Shown here in pieces: positions 29,656 through 37,307 of a DNA stretch of 64,000 bases (its first letter is position 1; every line of letters starts with the position of its first letter). The notes under the pieces are model-generated. The model did not search any database. It worked only from the letters and a program-made list of their open reading frames with translations, and was not told the origin of the DNA. The stretch is from Methyloversatilis sp. RAC08 (lineage in GTDB: Bacteria; Pseudomonadota; Gammaproteobacteria; Burkholderiales; Rhodocyclaceae): positions 1,736,001-1,800,000 of the forward strand of contig NZ_CP016448.1 in assembly GCF_001713355.1 (NCBI RefSeq), written 5' to 3'. Position numbers and translations under genes: made by a program.

Positions 29656-30474
29656 TCAGGCGTTCCACAGCTTCCACAGCATGCGCACGGCCAGCGCGAC
29701 CAGCAGCAGCGAAAACAGCCGCTTGATCAGCGGCACCGGCAGCCGGTGTGCGGCGCGCGCGCCGAGCTGTGTCGTGAACAGGCTGCCCGCGACGATGGCG
29801 GCCAGCGCCGGCAGGTGCACATAGCCCAGCACCTGCGGCGGCATGTCCGGCACGCCCCAGCCATTGAAGATGTAGCCGGCCGTGCCGCCAAGCGCGATCG
29901 GCAGGCCGAGCGCGGCAGAGGTGCCGATGGCCTGACGGATGTCGCGGTTGCACCAGGTCAGGAAGGGCACCGTCAGCGCGCCGCCGCCGATGGCGACCAG
30001 CGCCGACACCACGCCTATGCCGCTACCGGCCACGATCAAACCGCCTGCTCCGGGCAACTGACGGGCAGGCTTGGGCTTGAAACCGATCAGCATGGTCAGT
30101 GCGACGTAGCCGATGAACACCGCGAAGATCAGTGACAGCACCTGGGTCGACACTTCGCGCGCGATGAAGGTGCCGAACAGGGTGCCGATCAGCACGCCTA
30201 TGGTCATCGTGCGCACGGTTGGCCAGTCGACCGCGCCGTGCGCATGGTGGGTGCGCAGGCTGATCGCGGCCGACGCGACGATGGCCGCCATCGAGGTGCC
30301 GAGCGCCAGATGCAGGATGTGGTCGGGCGTGACGTGCAGCCGTTCGAACAGGCTGACCAGAATCGGCACCAGCAGAGCGCCACCGCCGATGCCCAGCAAT
30401 CCGGCCAGGAAGCCTGTGACGGTGCCCAGCAACAGGCAGGCGAGCACGAACTCGGTATCGGGGAAGAAAATCAT
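29656..30474 (-). CDS. TauE/SafE (TSUP) family anion permease
   Basis: 272 residues with about eight transmembrane helices in two related halves, each with a Gly-rich motif: L-L-G-I-G-G-G-A-L-L-V-P (26-37) and V-A-I-G-G-G-A-L-T-V-P-F (160-171). This repeat is the hallmark of TSUP proteins, which export sulfite, sulfoacetate or other small organic anions. No sulfur genes are adjacent. It follows the oxalate-type cluster on the same strand but is separated by a hairpin. Confidence 0.88.
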   Translation of the reverse strand: MIFFPDTEFVLACLLLGTVTGFLAGLLGIGGGALLVPILVSLFERLHVTPDHILHLALGTSMAAIVASAAISLRTHHAHGAVDWPTVRTMTIGVLIGTLFGTFIAREVSTQVLSLIFAVFIGYVALTMLIGFKPKPARQLPGAGGLIVAGSGIGVVSALVAIGGGALTVPFLTWCNRDIRQAIGTSAALGLPIALGGTAGYIFNGWGVPDMPPQVLGYVHLPALAAIVAGSLFTTQLGARAAHRLPVPLIKRLFSLLLVALAVRMLWKLWNA

Positions 30475-30559
30475 GGTGCGGACATCATGGTGCGCTGCAA
30501 AAACCGCTATCTGAACACAGGCCGCAGTGCGACCGCAAAGCCTGCGTTGCGCAGAAACA

Positions 30560-30585
30560 CACAGGGCACCCTCAGGTGCCCTGTG
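30560..30585 (-). terminator. Strong hairpin after the PanE/ApbA reductase
   Basis: An 11-bp perfect stem (CACAGGGCACC / GGTGCCCTGTG) with a CTCA loop, 22 bases past the reductase stop. The T-run on the minus strand is weak (TGTTTC), so termination may be partial. It is the likely end of the ligase-tctCBA-reductase unit. Confidence 0.68.
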
Positions 30586-30607: not shown

Positions 30608-31612
30608 TCAACCGGCGATGGCCAGCTTGCCGCGCTTGTCCGACAGCGTGCGCGCCAGCAGCGACACCAGCGCATACACCGCATCGATGTTCGGCGTCGG
30701 GATGCCGGTGATGCGGCCCAGTTCACGCACCGAGCCGACCAGCGCCTCGAATTCGAGCGGCCGGCCGGCTTCGACGTCCTGCAGCATCGAGGTCTTGTGC
30801 GCGCCGACCGCTTCGGCACCGGCGATGCGCTTGTCGAGCGCGATCTTGAATTCAACGCCCAGCTTCTCGCCGACCGATTGCGCCTCGCGCATCATGTTGG
30901 CCGCCAGTTCGCGGGTCAGCGGGAAGCGGCAGATGTCTTCCAGCGTGGCATGCGTCAGCGCCGAAATCGGGTTGAAGCTCAGATTGCCCCACAGCTTCAC
31001 CCACATTTCGGAGCGGATGTCCTTCGACACCGGCGATTTGAAGCCGGCGGCGATCATGGCCTGCGACAGCGCCTCGATGCGCGGCGAGCGCGAACCGTCG
31101 AGTTCGCCCAGCGTGAAGCGATTGCCTTCGATCAGCTTGATGACGCCCGGCTCGACCAGTTCGGACGCCGGATACACCACGCTGCCGATGACCCGCTCGA
31201 CTTCGATGTTCGCGGCGACGATGCCGTCCGGGTCCACCGAAGTGACCGGCGTGCCCTCGTAATCGCCGGCCAGCTTGTGGAAGTACCACCACGGAATGCC
31301 GTTCTGCATCGTCACGACCATCGTGTCCGGGCCGAACAGCGCCCGCATGTCGGCCGCGACATCCTTCACCTGATGCGCCTTGAGCGTCAGCAGGATCACG
31401 TCCTGCACGCCGGCGTCCGTCATCTTCTGCACGCCGCGGATGTCCGGCGCGTGCTCGACCGTGCCGTCTTCCAGCATCAGCGACATGCCCTTCGCCTGGA
31501 TGGCGGCGAGGTTGGGGCCACGCGCGATGCAGGTGACTTCATTGCCGGCACGCGACAGCTTCACGGCCAGATAACCACCGATGGCGCCTGCGCCAACGAC
31601 TGCAATCTTCAT
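30608..31612 (-). CDS. PanE/ApbA-family 2-oxoacid reductase (candidate oxalyl-CoA reductase)
   Basis: 334 residues. The N-terminal Rossmann motif G-A-G-A-I-G-G-Y (7-14) binds NADPH. A lysine in T-L-K-A-H and the M-W-V-K-L-W-G-N-L-S-F-N-P block with Lys and Asn fit ketopantoate reductases. A housekeeping panE would usually stand near pantothenate genes; here it is last in a cluster with a CoA ligase and a tricarboxylate-type transporter. In Methylobacterium extorquens a PanE homologue (PanE2) reduces oxalyl-CoA to glyoxylate, which fits this context better. A GGGAGATG ribosome site precedes the start. Confidence 0.85.
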   Translation of the reverse strand: MKIAVVGAGAIGGYLAVKLSRAGNEVTCIARGPNLAAIQAKGMSLMLEDGTVEHAPDIRGVQKMTDAGVQDVILLTLKAHQVKDVAADMRALFGPDTMVVTMQNGIPWWYFHKLAGDYEGTPVTSVDPDGIVAANIEVERVIGSVVYPASELVEPGVIKLIEGNRFTLGELDGSRSPRIEALSQAMIAAGFKSPVSKDIRSEMWVKLWGNLSFNPISALTHATLEDICRFPLTRELAANMMREAQSVGEKLGVEFKIALDKRIAGAEAVGAHKTSMLQDVEAGRPLEFEALVGSVRELGRITGIPTPNIDAVYALVSLLARTLSDKRGKLAIAG

Positions 31613-31711
31613 CTTTTCATCTCCCTCGAGAGCGCGGCGGCGCGCCGGACACCGGTCACGCCGCCGCCGGCCGCGCCCGGCCGTCGTGCGGCGGGCGCAG
31701 CGGGTTTCAGA

Positions 31712-33208
31712 TCAAGTGCGGCGGCGCAGCTGGTGCTTCAGCACCGGCACTATGGGCCACAGCAGCATCACGAACGACAAGGCCATCAGGCCGCCGACCA
31801 GCGGATTCGCCCAGAAGATGTCCAGACTGCCCTGCGACAGCAGCATCGACTGGCGGAAGCTAGACTCGGCCATGTCGCCCAGCACCAGCGCGAGCACCAG
31901 AGGCGCGAGCGGATAGCGCAGCTTCTTGAACAGGTAACCGAACACGCCGAACACCAGCATCATCACCACGTCGAAGATCGAGCTGTGCACCGTGTAGGCG
32001 CCGATCGCGCAGATGACGATGATGATCGGGCCGATGACCGAGAACGGAATGCGCAGGATGGCTGCCCACCACGGCACGGTGGTCAGCACGATGATCAGGC
32101 CGACGATGTTGCCCAGATACATCGAGGCGATCAGGCCCCATACGAAGTCCGGTTTTTCGGTGAACAGCAGCGGACCCGGCTGCAGGCCCCAGATCAGCAG
32201 GCCGCCCAGCAGCACGGCGGCGGTCGGCGAACCCGGAATGCCCAGCGTCAGCATCGGCAGCAGGGCCGACGTGCCGGCTGCGTGCGCCGCGGTTTCCGGC
32301 GCCACCACGCCTTCGATGTTGCCCTTGCCGAACGAATCCTTGTCCTTTGCACCGCGACGGGCCAGGCCGTAGGCCATGAAGGAGGCCGGCGTGGCACCGC
32401 CCGGCGTGACGCCCATCCAGCAGCCGACCAGTACCGAGCGGATCGAGGTTTTCCAGTAGCGCAGCAGTTCAGCCCAGGTCTTCAGCACCACGTCGAGCTG
32501 GATCTTCGCGCTCTTGCCCTTGAAAGCCAGGCCTTCTTCCATCGTCAGCAGGATTTCGCCGATGCCGAACAGGCCGATCACCGCGATCAGGAAGTCGAAA
32601 CCCTTCAGCAGTTCGGTCACGCCATAGGTCATGCGCAACGTGCCGGTCACCGTGTCCATGCCGACCGCGGCCAGCGCGAAACCCAGTGCCATCACGGCCA
32701 GCGTCTTGGCCGGTGGCTCCTTGCTCATGCCGACAAACGAACAGAAGGTGAGCATCTGCACCGCGAACATTTCCGCCGCACCGAATTTCAGCGCGAACCT
32801 CGCCACCAGGGGAGCGAGGAAGGTGATCAGCAGCACGGCGAAGAACGCACCGACGAAGGACGACGTGAACGCCGCGGTCAGCGCGGCACCCGCGCGTCCC
32901 TGCTGCGCCATCGGATAGCCGTCGAACGTGGTCGCGACAGACCACGGCTCACCCGGAATGTTGAACAGGATCGACGTGATCGCGCCACCGAACAATGCGC
33001 CCCAGTAGATGCAGGACAGCATGATGATGGCCGAGGTCTGGTCCATCGAAAAGGTCAGCGGCAGCAGGATGGCGATGCCGTTGGCACCGCCCAGACCGGG
33101 CAGCACGCCGATCAGGATGCCCAGCGTGACGCCGAGCACCATGAAGCCCAGGTTGGGCAGCGTCATCGCGACGCTGAACCCGTGCATGAGGTTATTGAGT
33201 TCGTCCAT
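31712..33208 (-). CDS. tctA: Tripartite tricarboxylate transporter, large subunit TctA
   Basis: 498 residues, about ten to twelve transmembrane helices. Family motifs are visible: G-V-L-P-G-L-G-G-A-N-G (residues about 34-44), P-G-E-P-W-S-V-A-T-T-F-D-G-Y-P-M-A-Q-Q-G-R-A-G and G-V-T-P-G-G-A-T-P-A-S-F-M-A-Y. TctA carries the solute, driven by an ion gradient, after delivery by the periplasmic TctC. It lies 30 bases after tctB and 99 bases ahead of the reductase gene. Confidence 0.94.
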   Translation of the reverse strand: MDELNNLMHGFSVAMTLPNLGFMVLGVTLGILIGVLPGLGGANGIAILLPLTFSMDQTSAIIMLSCIYWGALFGGAITSILFNIPGEPWSVATTFDGYPMAQQGRAGAALTAAFTSSFVGAFFAVLLITFLAPLVARFALKFGAAEMFAVQMLTFCSFVGMSKEPPAKTLAVMALGFALAAVGMDTVTGTLRMTYGVTELLKGFDFLIAVIGLFGIGEILLTMEEGLAFKGKSAKIQLDVVLKTWAELLRYWKTSIRSVLVGCWMGVTPGGATPASFMAYGLARRGAKDKDSFGKGNIEGVVAPETAAHAAGTSALLPMLTLGIPGSPTAAVLLGGLLIWGLQPGPLLFTEKPDFVWGLIASMYLGNIVGLIIVLTTVPWWAAILRIPFSVIGPIIIVICAIGAYTVHSSIFDVVMMLVFGVFGYLFKKLRYPLAPLVLALVLGDMAESSFRQSMLLSQGSLDIFWANPLVGGLMALSFVMLLWPIVPVLKHQLRRRT

Positions 33209-33238
33209 CTCGGTCTCGGAGGATGAGTTCTTGTGGTG

Positions 33239-33751
33239 TCACAGACCGAGCATCAGCTCGATCGGACCTTTTGGAAGCGGCACGAGAAACCAGCGCTCGA
33301 ACAGCAGGAAGGCGCCCAGCGGCACGCCGATCGAGGTGATCGCCGTGGCCAGCCAGCCGAATTTGCCGTGCACCTTCATGAAGAAGGCGATCAGCACCAG
33401 CGAAGACACGTAAATGCCCAGGAACACCACTGCCGCCACATAGATGGTCAGCGGCACCAGCATCTGCATCACCGAGCGCAGTTCAGTCCAGCTGGCGAAC
33501 TGCGGCTGCGCGCGCCTGAACTTCATCAGCGCGGTGATCAGGATCCAGCCGCTTGACGCCAGCAGGATGCAGCCGATGTAGAACGGGAAGTAGCCGGCGC
33601 GCGGGCCTTCGCCCTCTTCCCAGCCGATGCCGACGCGGATGCTGTCGATGACCGCGATGATTCCCATGACGAACAGGAACAGCGCGACCAGTAGTTCCGG
33701 CCAGCGGTTGGACAAGCCGGCTTCAGCGGCTTCCTCGGATCGCTCCATCAC
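33239..33751 (-). CDS. tctB: Tripartite tricarboxylate transporter, small subunit TctB
   Basis: 170 residues with four hydrophobic helices, the usual TctB design. It starts with a short acidic N-terminus (M-E-R-S-E-E-A-A-E-A) and has G-E-G-P-R-A-G-Y-F-P-F-Y-I-G after the first helix, a family motif. TGGAGA ahead of the ATG is the ribosome site. TctB is needed for TctA function; it has no catalytic role of its own. It is separated from tctC by a strong hairpin. Confidence 0.9.
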   Translation of the reverse strand: MMERSEEAAEAGLSNRWPELLVALFLFVMGIIAVIDSIRVGIGWEEGEGPRAGYFPFYIGCILLASSGWILITALMKFRRAQPQFASWTELRSVMQMLVPLTIYVAAVVFLGIYVSSLVLIAFFMKVHGKFGWLATAITSIGVPLGAFLLFERWFLVPLPKGPIELMLGL

Positions 33752-33806
33752 GAATCTCCAGAATGAAAACAGGGCGCATGCATCTTTGCGGCGGGCGATT
33801 AAATGA

Positions 33807-33832
33807 ACACGGGCGGGATGACCCGCCCGTGT
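33807..33832 (-). promoter_or_regulatory. Intercistronic hairpin between tctC and tctB
   Basis: A perfect 11-bp stem (ACACGGGCGGG / CCCGCCCGTGT) with an ATGA loop, 21 bases past the tctC stop. The minus-strand sequence after it (TCATTTAATCG) is not a proper T-run. Such a hairpin can protect the upstream message and lower downstream expression, giving more binding protein than permease. Confidence 0.7.
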
Positions 33833-33853
33833 GACTGACTTGCTTGAGGCGGA

Positions 33854-34858
33854 TTACTTGGCGAGGAAGCCGGCGTCCTTCATCAGGCCGTAGTGCATCG
33901 CTTCGGTCTTGCCCACCCAGTCGGCGAATTCCTTGCCGCTCATGAAGGTCTGCTTGAAAGCGCCCTTCTTCATGAAATCGGCCCATTCCGGTGTTTCACG
34001 CACCTTCTTGAACAGATTGACGTAGAAGTCCACCTGTTCCTGCGTGACGCCCGGGGCGAGGAAAATGCCGCGCAGCATCAGGTACTCGATCGGCACGCCG
34101 GCGCTCTTGCAGGTCGGAATGTCGGCCCAGGACTGCGTATCCGTCACCTTTTCGGTGTAGGTCAGCTTTTCGGTGTCCATGATGCACAGCGGGCGCAGCT
34201 TGCCGCCACGCCAGTGGGCTTCGGCTTCGATCGGGTTGTTGACGGTCGAATTGACATGACCGCCGACCAGTTGCACCGCCACATCGCCGCCGCCCTTGAA
34301 CGGCACGTAAATCATCTTCTTGCCGGTGGCCTTGTCGATCATCGCGGTGATGATCTGGTCTTCCTGCTTCGAGCCGGTACCGGCCATCTTGAACGTGCTG
34401 GCCGGCTTGGCCTTGATGTCGTCGATGTATTCCTTGGCCGTCTTGTACGGCGCGTCGGCATTCACCCACAACACGAACTGGTCGAGTGCGAGCATCGCGC
34501 CCGGCGTCAGGTCACGCCAGTTGAACGGGACACCGGTCGCCAGCGGCGTGGTGAACAGATTCGACAGCGTGATGATGATCTTGTGCGGATTGCCCTTGGC
34601 ACCCTTCACCTCGAGGAATCCTTCGGCTCCGGCGCCACCCGACTTGTTGACGACGACGAGCGGTTGCTCCATCAACTTGTTCTTGGCCACGATGCCCTGG
34701 ATGAAACGGGCCATCTGGTCGGCGCCGCCGCCGGTGCCGGCCGGCACGACGAACTCGACCGGCTTGGTCGGTTCCCACGCATGTGCAGCACCGGTCAGGC
34801 CGATCGCTGCAACCGCAGATACCAGGGCTCTTGCGGCCCAGTTCTTGAACTCGATCAT
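33854..34858 (-). CDS. tctC: TctC/Bug-family periplasmic solute-binding protein
   Basis: 334 residues. Signal peptide about 1-27 (A-A-H-A-W). The mature protein has P-V-E-F-V-V-P-A-G-T-G-G-G-A-D-Q at its start and V-P-F-K-G-G-G-D-V-A-V-Q-L-V-G-G-H in the middle, both Bug/TctC signatures for binding carboxylates. The ligand cannot be read from sequence. GAGGAGAG lies 5 bases ahead of the ATG, a strong ribosome site fitting high expression. The CoA ligase gene is immediately upstream, 54 bases away. Confidence 0.92.
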   Translation of the reverse strand: MIEFKNWAARALVSAVAAIGLTGAAHAWEPTKPVEFVVPAGTGGGADQMARFIQGIVAKNKLMEQPLVVVNKSGGAGAEGFLEVKGAKGNPHKIIITLSNLFTTPLATGVPFNWRDLTPGAMLALDQFVLWVNADAPYKTAKEYIDDIKAKPASTFKMAGTGSKQEDQIITAMIDKATGKKMIYVPFKGGGDVAVQLVGGHVNSTVNNPIEAEAHWRGGKLRPLCIMDTEKLTYTEKVTDTQSWADIPTCKSAGVPIEYLMLRGIFLAPGVTQEQVDFYVNLFKKVRETPEWADFMKKGAFKQTFMSGKEFADWVGKTEAMHYGLMKDAGFLAK

Positions 34859-34912
34859 TGCACTCTCCTCAGTGGATATTGTTGATGACAGTACTGCGGA
34901 AAAGGTCGTGGA

Positions 34913-36439
34913 TCAGGTACCCAGACCCAGCTTCTGTGCCAGCCCGATACGTTGCAGCTTGCCGGTTGCACCCTTGGGAATTTCGTCCATGAACAGAATC
35001 TTGCGCGGCACCTTGAAGTCGGCGAGCTTCGTCGCGGCAAACGCCTGGATTTCCTTGTCGGTCGCGCTCTGGCCTTCGCGCAGCACGACGACTGCGCCGA
35101 CTTCCTCGCCCAGCTTCGGGTGCGGAATGCCGAACGTCACGACCTGGGAGACCGCAGGGTGATCCATCAACACTTCGTCGACCTCGCGCGGCGAAATCTT
35201 CTCGCCACCGCGGTTGATGATTTCCTTCAGGCGACCGGTCAGCGACAGATAGCCCTCGGCGTCCTTGCTGCCCTGATCACCGGTGCGGAACCAGCCGTGC
35301 GTGAAACCTTCCTTGTTCGCCTTCTCGTTGTTTTCGTAGCCAGGCGTCACGTTGGCGCCGCGGATGACGATTTCGCCGATCTCGCCAGCCGGCAGGATGT
35401 TGCCGTCGTCGTCCATGATTTCCACTTCGGGACCGGCCGCCAGTCCGACGGCACCCGGCTTGCGCGGACGCGGCGGCAGCGGGTTGGACGCCATCTGGTG
35501 CGAAGCTTCCGTCATGCCGTATGCCTCGATCAGCGGTGCCCCGAACACCTCTTCCAGTTCGCGGATGACCTGCGGCGGAATCGACGACGACGACGAGCGC
35601 AGGAAGCGCAGCGGGTTGCGGGCAATCGTTTCCTTGTTGCGCGATGCGCGTGACAGGATGGCCTGGTGCATCGTCGGCACCGCGGTGTACCAGGTCGGAC
35701 GCGCTTCATCCATCCAGGAGAAGAACTTCAGTGCGTCGAAGCCCGGCGTGCAGAACACCGATGCGCCGGCGGACAGCGGCGCCATGATGCCGGCGATCAG
35801 GCCATGGATATGGAACAGCGGCATGATGTTCAGGCCGCGATCCTTTTCGGTGAAGGCAAGCGTTGCGCAGATGTTCTGCGCCGAAGCGCACACGTTGCGC
35901 TGGGTCAGCGGCACGATCTTCGGGCGTGAGGTCGTGCCCGAGGTGTGCAGCACGAGTGCCACATCGTCCGGCTGGGCATTGCCCGGGTGCGCCGGCGCAG
36001 ACACGTCGGCCGCCTCGCGCGGCTCCAGCGTGAAATCTCCAGCGGCGTCCTGCGCCACCAGATCGATGACGCGAACACCCAGCTTCTTCGCCACCTCGAT
36101 GGCCGGCGACACGCTGCCGCGGTCGACCACGAGCGCCCGGGCGTTCAGGTCGGAAAGATAGAACTCGAATTCTTCCGCACGATAGCCGGCGTTGAGCGGC
36201 GCAGCCGTGGCGCCGGCGGCGATGCTGATGAATGCGCTGGCCATGTCCGGGCCGTTCGGCAGCACGATGGCGACGCGATCATTGCGGCCGATGCCGAGCG
36301 CGTTCAGGCGTGCGATGGTGCGTGCCATCAGGGCACGCAGCTGACCGAAGCTCAGGTCCGAACGCGCCGGCGCAGACAGCGCGACGGATGCATCGGCTCC
36401 AGTGGAAAACAGCTCGATCAGCGTAGAGGTGGCCGACAT
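34913..36439 (-). CDS. Acyl-CoA synthetase, oxalyl-CoA synthetase (AAE3/Pcs60)-like
   Basis: 508 residues of the ANL superfamily. The AMP-binding P-loop is H-T-S-G-T-T-S-R-P-K. F-H-I-H-G-L-I-A-G, W-Y-T-A-V-P-T-M-H-Q, Y-G-M-T-E-A-S-H-Q-M-A-S-N-P and I-N-R-G-G-E-K-I-S-P-R-E-V-D are all close to the plant AAE3 and yeast Pcs60 oxalyl-CoA synthetases as I remember them. The catalytic Lys is in K-G-A-T-G-K-L-Q-R. An ACGGAG site 5 bases ahead fixes the ATG at 36439; 14 codons of open frame upstream are ignored. It is first in a unit with tctCBA and a PanE-type reductase. Confidence 0.87.
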   Translation of the reverse strand: MSATSTLIELFSTGADASVALSAPARSDLSFGQLRALMARTIARLNALGIGRNDRVAIVLPNGPDMASAFISIAAGATAAPLNAGYRAEEFEFYLSDLNARALVVDRGSVSPAIEVAKKLGVRVIDLVAQDAAGDFTLEPREAADVSAPAHPGNAQPDDVALVLHTSGTTSRPKIVPLTQRNVCASAQNICATLAFTEKDRGLNIMPLFHIHGLIAGIMAPLSAGASVFCTPGFDALKFFSWMDEARPTWYTAVPTMHQAILSRASRNKETIARNPLRFLRSSSSSIPPQVIRELEEVFGAPLIEAYGMTEASHQMASNPLPPRPRKPGAVGLAAGPEVEIMDDDGNILPAGEIGEIVIRGANVTPGYENNEKANKEGFTHGWFRTGDQGSKDAEGYLSLTGRLKEIINRGGEKISPREVDEVLMDHPAVSQVVTFGIPHPKLGEEVGAVVVLREGQSATDKEIQAFAATKLADFKVPRKILFMDEIPKGATGKLQRIGLAQKLGLGT

Positions 36440-36772
36440 ACAGACTCCGTAAGACAGTTTGAAATTCAAGAAGCCGCCCATCGCGTGCTTCGGGGTTCCG
36501 CAGACGCAAGCCGACAGGTCTCCGCGGACAACCGCTGTTCCGCAAAAGCAAAACGATGGGGGGTGTGAGTGTCGTCCATAACGAACGATCGTTCAAGCCA
36601 TGCCCGCACCAAGCGATCAGCTTATGCAAAACTTTGCTGCAAAGACACTGAGTTGGAACAGTCTGTGGCAGATAAGCCACAAGACAATGGCTGCGATGTG
36701 TCTCATCGCCAACCAGAGGCGGTCACCTCGGTGACCGTACCGCGCGCCCGGGGTGGTGGGCTGTCGGTAGGG
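36440..36772. other. Intergenic region upstream of the CoA ligase cluster
   Basis: No gene is seen here on either strand. It holds the ligase leader, a 12-bp palindrome at 36583-36594, and a small perfect 7-bp hairpin at 36721-36736 just past the 6S RNA. Short open frames on the plus strand lack ribosome sites and family likeness. Confidence 0.7.
36583..36594. promoter_or_regulatory. Perfect 12-bp palindrome, candidate operator
   Basis: GAACGATCGTTC is a perfect palindrome 144 bases ahead of the CoA ligase start. On the minus strand it overlaps a possible -35 hexamer (TTGAAC) with a weak -10 (GACACT) 17 bases on. Size and symmetry suit a TetR-type repressor site. No regulator gene is next to it in this window. 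Confidence 0.5.
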
Positions 36773-36989: not shown

Positions 36990-37307
36990 CTAGAACAGCT
37001 TTTCCTGACTGGAAAGCACCTCTTCGATACGCGATTGCATGGAATTGATTCTACGCCGCAGCGGCACCAAATCAACACCGCCGGTCGCCTGCATCTGAAA
37101 AATTTCGTGTGCAAGATTGAGCGCGCACATCACCGCAAGCCGTTCTCCCGATGCGCGCGTCGTTTCCGCCAGATCACGCATGCGGCGCTCGACCAGTTCG
37201 ACCGAGGCATTCAGTGCGTCGCGATCACCTTCCCGGCATTGCACCCGGTACTCGCGTCCGAGGATCGTGATTTCAGTGGTTTCCGCCTGCGCGGGTTCGC
37301 GGCTCAT
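36990..37307 (-). CDS. zapA: Cell division protein ZapA
   Basis: 105 residues. ZapA stabilises FtsZ protofilaments at the division ring. The N-terminal half has I-T-I-L-G-R-E-Y-R-V-Q-C and the region V-M-C-A-L-N-L-A-H-E-I, both typical; the C-terminal half is a coiled coil. Length matches the family (about 100). The start overlaps the stop of the upstream coiled-coil gene by 4 bases, and 6S RNA follows its stop. Confidence 0.94.
   Translation of the reverse strand: MSREPAQAETTEITILGREYRVQCREGDRDALNASVELVERRMRDLAETTRASGERLAVMCALNLAHEIFQMQATGGVDLVPLRRRINSMQSRIEEVLSSQEKLF

Follow-up and report, generated by a model that had tools for sequence, protein, structure and literature searches.

In oxalotrophy based on Frc, Oxc and OxlT, oxalate enters the cell through an antiporter, is activated to oxalyl-coenzyme A (oxalyl-CoA) by a CoA transferase, and is decarboxylated to yield formate. 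As reported in PMC7486775, deletion of frc-oxc abolished the growth of Cupriavidus necator on oxalate. The same paper describes ApbA2, which was found with Methylobacterium extorquens PanE2 as the query (51% identity) and is encoded near frc-oxc; without apbA2, cells growing on oxalate doubled every 10 h instead of every 6.5 h. PanE2 itself was characterised and used in vitro as an oxalyl-CoA reductase (PMC8411744). In plants, an oxalyl-CoA decarboxylase performs the step after the ligase AAE3 (PMC8004701, PMC9090294). Here we describe a five-gene operon of Methyloversatilis sp. RAC08 that encodes a ligase, a tripartite tricarboxylate transporter (TTT) and a PanE-type reductase. It lies within a 64,000-nucleotide stretch (contig NZ_CP016448.1, positions 1,736,001 to 1,800,000), hereafter the window. 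We consider it quite probable that the operon takes up oxalate and, after activation with ATP, reduces it to glyoxylate. The initial annotation had proposed this sequence of uptake, activation and reduction, and it remains the best reading in view of the kinship of the ligase, a second PanE in the genome, an antiporter swap in related loci and the lack of Oxc and Frc; oxalate as the acid comes from sequence kinship and gene context.

The source genome is a single contig of 3.94 Mb (99.96% complete). The five genes were intact, followed one another on the minus strand as ligase, TctC, TctB, TctA and PanE, and carried the expected Pfam domains, in agreement with their first description as a co-directional set:

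34913..36439, minus strand: AMP-forming oxalate-CoA ligase (predicted oxalyl-CoA synthetase, AAE3/Pcs60 type), 508 aa; PDB matches and Pfam
33854..34858, minus strand: TctC/Bug periplasmic binding protein, 334 aa; Pfam TctC 87 bits, PDB 4x9t 109 bits
33239..33751, minus strand: TctB small membrane subunit, 170 aa; Pfam TctB 68 bits
31712..33208, minus strand: TctA large membrane subunit, 498 aa; Pfam TctA 505 bits
30608..31612, minus strand: PanE/ApbA-type reductase, a putative oxalyl-CoA reductase (PanE2/ApbA2-like), 334 aa; Pfam ApbA 94 bits, ApbA_C 105 bits

From ligase to PanE, the intergenic gaps measured 54, 102, 30 and 99 bases. The longest ligase frame begins at 36481; the start at 36439 adopted earlier fits better because ACGGAG stands a few bases 5′ of that ATG. 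The N-terminus of TctC looked signal-like by eye. As in other tripartite tricarboxylate transporters (Bug/TctABC), all three subunits were present by Pfam.

The ligase contained the Pfam domains AMP-binding (258 bits) and AMP-binding_C (65.5 bits). Its three best PDB matches were 5ie0 (469 bits), which we take to be Arabidopsis AAE3, 6qjz (445 bits), named oxalyl CoA-synthetase and presumably from Lathyrus, and 8aff (387 bits), named oxalate-CoA ligase and taken as yeast Pcs60. A malonyl-CoA synthetase followed with 222 bits, the highest score of any other acyl ligase, so that the label of AAE3/Pcs60-like oxalyl-CoA synthetase (EC 6.2.1.8) given at the outset was supported by a wide margin. 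The alignment pointed the same way. HTSGTTSRPK was common to the ligase and both plant enzymes (HTSGTTSTPK in Pcs60), PLFH-I/V-HGL was common to the ligase and all three oxalate-CoA ligases, and MTEASHQM of the ligase was exact in Pcs60, with MTEATHLM and MTEASHLM as the plant versions. At all three stretches, the chimeric malonyl-CoA synthetase deviated from the ligase. Moreover, the lysine of GATGKLQR aligned with K523 of Pcs60 (counted back from the chain end), which is the C-terminal lysine described for that enzyme (PMC8099913). The resemblance to AAE3/Pcs60 of Arabidopsis, Lathyrus and yeast thus covers the AMP-forming type, the conserved stretches and the best structural matches, whereas the present ligase is bacterial and shares its operon with transporter and reductase genes. 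Action on oxalate is the best reading of its kinship and gene context. For plant enzymes of this type, Km values of 105 and 224 uM for oxalate have been reported (PMC7700444, PMC9301600). Its nearest named relatives were found in three Methyloversatilis metagenome-assembled genomes (MAGs; 98% identity), followed at 88–92% by M. universalis EHg5, an M. discipulorum MAG, M. thermotolerans and one further MAG.

None of oxc, frc, oxdC and oxlT was present in the operon, and the first three failed in genome-wide model searches, oxlT not having been searched for at that scale. The best Frc hit scored 158 bits against a cut-off of 504 and the best Oxc hit 259 bits against 739 (TIGR03254), which upholds the early remark that neither gene was to be seen; OxdC gave no match genome-wide. 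Glyoxylate carboligase was likewise not found in the genome (314 bits vs 711). Frc and OxdC were searched for in this genome only. The Oxc model was passed by none of 13 Methyloversatilis genomes and by 4 of 39 genomes (our own and those of 38 of the 80 related loci considered below), all four Methylobacterium; Vineibacter and an alphaproteobacterial MAG gave ambiguous scores of 503 and 490 bits, below the cut-off. We must also note that a C. metallidurans decarboxylase-like protein beside Frc scored only 226 bits on TIGR03254, and because that protein itself fails the model, we re-tested the absence of Oxc with it. This Cupriavidus-type query had no match at 1e-60 in the RAC08 genome; it had matches at that threshold in 18 of 45 genomes, all at most 35% identical.

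The C. metallidurans protein (L102:12534-14285) is 26–27% identical to Methylobacterium Oxc, bears no NCBIfam name, and contains only thiamine-diphosphate domains according to Pfam. We read it as an Oxc because it adjoins Frc (624 bits) and because of the C. necator operon reported in PMC7486775; the standard models may therefore miss a whole type of Oxc. In the RAC08 genome, a weakly Oxc-like frame (G000:C1:2348176-2349777, 259 bits) was reported to contain one TAA.

The reductase is probably not the housekeeping enzyme of pantothenate synthesis suggested by its family name. A second clear PanE, 28% identical to it, was found in the genome, so the operon enzyme is not the only candidate ketopantoate reductase; had it been the only one, this would have spoken against the oxalate scheme, as stated at the outset. 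The other PanE would be the housekeeping one. Thirteen genomes were searched, and each held one homologue at least 61% identical to the operon reductase, the next-best reaching 28–42%; in four Methylobacterium genomes, every other homologue was at most 36% identical. A tree of 56 of 95 collected proteins (the partial PanE frames of L030, L039 and L056 being omitted from the 95, and M. extorquens PanE2 itself not included) placed the reductase within a set of 25 ligase-adjacent reductases, including those of Methylobacterium, with support of 99/95. Far from this set, the other PanE of the genome grouped with those of two Methylobacterium genomes on a long, starred branch. On the tree, the ligase-adjacent label required three changes, not one: L085, L069 and L100 lay apart from the main set. 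Long branches were seen for several of the distant PanE rows.

In the alignment, K206 and E287, which we take to be the catalytic Lys/Glu pair, were conserved. Four further residues, Y110, F166, G265 and H272, were conserved in 76 ligase-adjacent and 6 oxc/pnt-adjacent rows and in at most 15% of 13 other PanE; the 76 include L040, whose sole PanE match (27%, at the opposite contig end) is no true pair member. A C. metallidurans relative encoded near Frc was 51% identical to the reductase, and the ligase-adjacent PanE of Methylobacterium bullatum (L099) was 51% identical to that C. metallidurans protein. The value equals the one reported for PanE2 and ApbA2, which fits, and does not prove, PanE2 orthology of the ligase-adjacent enzymes. 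We infer that the operon PanE is an oxalyl-CoA reductase like PanE2 and ApbA2 (EC 1.2.1.17), which share with it the PanE family, the separation from housekeeping PanE and the presumed conversion of oxalyl-CoA to glyoxylate. The C. necator apbA2 gene lies near frc-oxc (PMC7486775), whereas neither gene was found here and CoA would be loaded by the ATP-dependent ligase.

Other gene arrangements around PanE2/ApbA2-like reductases were also observed. A SucCD-like CoA ligase pair lies near such a reductase in C. metallidurans (L102:10053-12198, next to Frc and the gene for the decarboxylase-like protein) as well as in Phyllobacterium zundukense (L105:11205-12918), and may represent another, less costly type of oxalyl-CoA synthetase. 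NAD(P) transhydrogenase genes stand near the reductase in Phyllobacterium (L105:7052-10261) and Skermanella (L101:8669-11561), which suggests a supply of NADPH for oxalyl-CoA reduction. On the other side of the Phyllobacterium reductase are gcl, hyi and a 2-hydroxy-3-oxopropionate reductase gene.

At least 569 relatives of the ligase were confirmed, and the best 80 loci (ligase 68–98% identical) were analysed, with PanE and TctC/TctA counted at 50% identity or more. PanE (51–100% identical) was present in 75 of the 80, on the strand of the ligase every time, following it in 52 loci and preceding it in 23; the gap never exceeded 3,417 bases and was below 250 in 40 loci. The five loci without PanE spanned 4.7–7.9 kb, and none of the 43 loci measuring 19 kb or more lacked it. 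TctC or TctA occurred in 39 loci, and 34 held ligase, TctC, TctA and PanE together, 29 of them in the order of the window. All seven Methyloversatilis loci examined (L011-L017) retained the five-gene order. The arrangement had at first been called an unusual complete unit; with at least 569 ligase relatives and PanE within 3.4 kb in 75 of the best 80, it is instead common among close relatives.

What speaks most strongly for oxalate as the acid is the replacement of the TTT by a likely oxalate antiporter near the same two enzymes. With major facilitator superfamily (MFS) transporters counted as homologues of those in L019 and L081, the 80 loci comprised 39 with a TTT, 11 with an MFS transporter, none with both and 30 with neither. 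Eight of the 11 MFS loci were scanned, and all eight proteins passed the oxalate/formate antiporter model TIGR04259 (598–651 bits vs a cut-off of 335). Four Methylobacterium loci (L079, L081, L088 and L090) showed the order MFS, FAH, PanE, ligase, L088 with the MFS end only. These resemble the RAC08 operon in the adjoining ligase (69–73% identical) and reductase (61–63%), and differ in having an antiporter for the TTT and, in all four genomes, an Oxc above the cut-off elsewhere. From this context, the TTT would carry oxalate. A third transporter type may exist on a Rhodobacteraceae plasmid (L100), the single case in which ABC genes with an NMT1-like binding protein lie directly upstream of ligase and PanE. 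Two other candidates were not accepted as swaps: a TRAP transporter next to ligase and PanE in L055 (DctP 256, DctM 393 bits), where the next frame was aspartase-like by eye, and branched-chain-type ABC genes in L089, recognised by a permease domain.

Several observations weigh against oxalate as the substrate or against the breadth of the evidence. Because the 80 loci were the closest out of at least 569, conservation was gauged among close kin. Neither transporter was seen in the available DNA of the 30 loci mentioned, a share that was 15 of 43 among the loci 19 kb or longer. Among curated NCBIfam models, none gives the ligase a name, the best-scoring one being of FadD7 type (428 bits, below the cut-off of 650). 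The reductase passes NF005089, "2-dehydropantoate 2-reductase" (462 bits vs 223); the C. metallidurans relative passes it too (534 bits), and hence this name does not separate the functions. Finally, an FAH-family hydrolase, for which the oxalate model has no role, occurred in 29 of the 80 loci, and seven of the eight scanned antiporters also passed an L-lactate MFS model (328–353 bits vs 320), far below their oxalate/formate scores. The FAH-family protein of L081 (L081:7106-7876) scored 178 bits in Pfam; the operon of the window has none.

The last two of these observations would suit a different acid, such as malonate, tartronate, mesoxalate, oxamate or a glycolate-like compound, which the ligase would activate and whose CoA ester the reductase would reduce; both the ligase and the TTT families handle many acids. 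Nevertheless, malonyl-CoA synthetase lay more than 220 bits below the plant oxalate ligases and 164 below Pcs60, the NCBIfam malonyl-CoA synthase model gave 311 bits on the ligase against a cut-off of 558, and every scanned MFS replacement of the TTT fitted the oxalate/formate model. We therefore regard another acid as unlikely.

For oxalate, the proposed route is as follows. TctC would capture periplasmic oxalate and TctAB would move it inward. The ligase would convert oxalate, ATP and CoA to oxalyl-CoA, AMP and pyrophosphate, and the PanE-type enzyme would reduce oxalyl-CoA with NAD(P)H to glyoxylate, releasing CoA. Compared with Frc-Oxc-OxlT oxalotrophy, in which oxalate likewise enters and is activated to oxalyl-CoA, such a route dispenses with CoA transferase, decarboxylation and antiporter, spends ATP, and yields glyoxylate, not formate. 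Glyoxylate would probably pass to serine-glyoxylate aminotransferase of the serine cycle or to malate synthase. The genome carries a malate synthase domain (348 bits) and a MOFRL domain (123 bits), the latter a domain known from glycerate 2-kinases. As reported in PMC5023235, M. universalis FAM5 expresses genes of the serine cycle and the glyoxylate shunt, including Sga.

The energetics of this route are poor. Full oxidation of oxalate delivers two electrons, or about 2.5 ATP via NADH, whereas activation by an AMP-forming ligase consumes two ATP equivalents and the subsequent reduction one NAD(P)H. In consequence, oxalate taken up in this way could hardly fund growth, and co-assimilation with methanol or another energy source is expected; this view fits the requirement of C. 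necator for frc-oxc during growth on oxalate (PMC7486775). Oxalate would thus be a carbon supplement while another substrate, such as methanol, gives energy, and not a sole growth substrate. The substrate, each activity, the direction of transport and this supplementary role are all predicted from sequence.

It is very unlikely that the enzymes run in reverse, with glyoxylate oxidised to oxalyl-CoA and shed as oxalate, the operon serving as a relief valve for glyoxylate. In favour of this reading, C. necator ApbA2 has been suggested to run oxidatively while the cells grow on glycolate (PMC7486775). However, the genome-wide search found no Oxc to consume oxalyl-CoA, the C. metallidurans reductase relative has a decarboxylase-like gene and frc nearby while the operon has neither, and a binding-protein transporter implies import. 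Moreover, AMP-forming ligases are driven towards the thioester by pyrophosphate hydrolysis. Equally improbable is detoxification or removal of a chelator, in which the operon would clear oxalate entering the cell with carbon gain incidental: plant AAE3 does work in oxalate catabolism (PMC8004701), but a transporter within the operon argues for active scavenging, and genes and chemistry would otherwise be identical to those of import for carbon, the role alone differing.

The operon of putative oxalate genes is flanked by the following features, none of which we count as a member:

36990..37307, minus strand: zapA, upstream flank, outside the operon; Pfam ZapA 72.7 bits
36772..36953, minus strand: 6S RNA (ssrS), upstream flank, outside the operon; Rfam RF00013, 50.2 bits vs a gathering score of 46.4
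30560..30585, minus strand: terminator-like hairpin with an 11-pair stem, directly 3′ of PanE; consensus match only
29656..30480, minus strand: TauE/SafE permease on the downstream side, probably just a neighbour; Pfam TauE 181 bits

The TauE/SafE gene was considered as a sixth member, since it recurs near the ligase-PanE pair, and was rejected because 16 of the 17 loci with TauE also carry zapA. The hairpin, which stands between it and PanE, also sets it apart, although the scan found three such sites against a shuffle mean of 5.1, so that the hairpin is weak evidence. Eight loci were scanned for 6S RNA, which was detected in four (L014, L019, L022 and L048) and not found in L018, L047, L059 and L078. 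It looks as if the oxalate genes were inserted into a conserved zapA-ssrS-EVE-TauE neighbourhood. Oxalate genes also lie near zapA in several lineages, and one insertion site may have been used repeatedly.

All the enzymes of the operon belong to known kinds. That a TTT might serve oxalate has been voiced before as speculation, a 2010 genome paper having included oxalate among many possible ligands of Bug/TTT receptors (PMC2864759); the word "oxalate" is absent from the TTT review PMC5812351. Our limited search of the open literature, with most subscription papers outside its scope, found no demonstrated TTT for oxalate, and the titles and abstract openings it covered described no unit of ligase, TTT and PanE free of oxc and frc. 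One genomic survey of oxalate use, as it presents its markers, rests on oxc, frc, oxdC and oxlT (PMC10192776), and the main text of a 2026 survey, which covers 19 enzymes plus a single transporter, contains neither words that begin with "ligase" or "synthetase" nor the number 6.2.1.8 (PMC12927642). Organisms of the present kind could be scored as non-users, because the operon is without all four markers and the oxc, frc and oxdC models fail genome-wide.

The finding most likely reveals, in a methanol-using bacterium, a route for oxalate that does without the genes normally used to spot oxalate-eating bacteria. Should oxalate prove to be its ligand, the TTT would represent an oxalate importer that depends on a binding protein. 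The energy argument predicts that oxalate would be consumed together with methanol, with little or no growth on oxalate alone. Whether this extends to a widespread and unrecognised form of oxalate use seems to us evenly balanced: bacteria without Oxc, Frc and OxdC would import oxalate by a binding-protein transporter, activate it with ATP and reduce it to glyoxylate as a carbon supplement, and would form a sink for oxalate that escapes surveys built on oxc, frc, oxdC and oxlT as markers.

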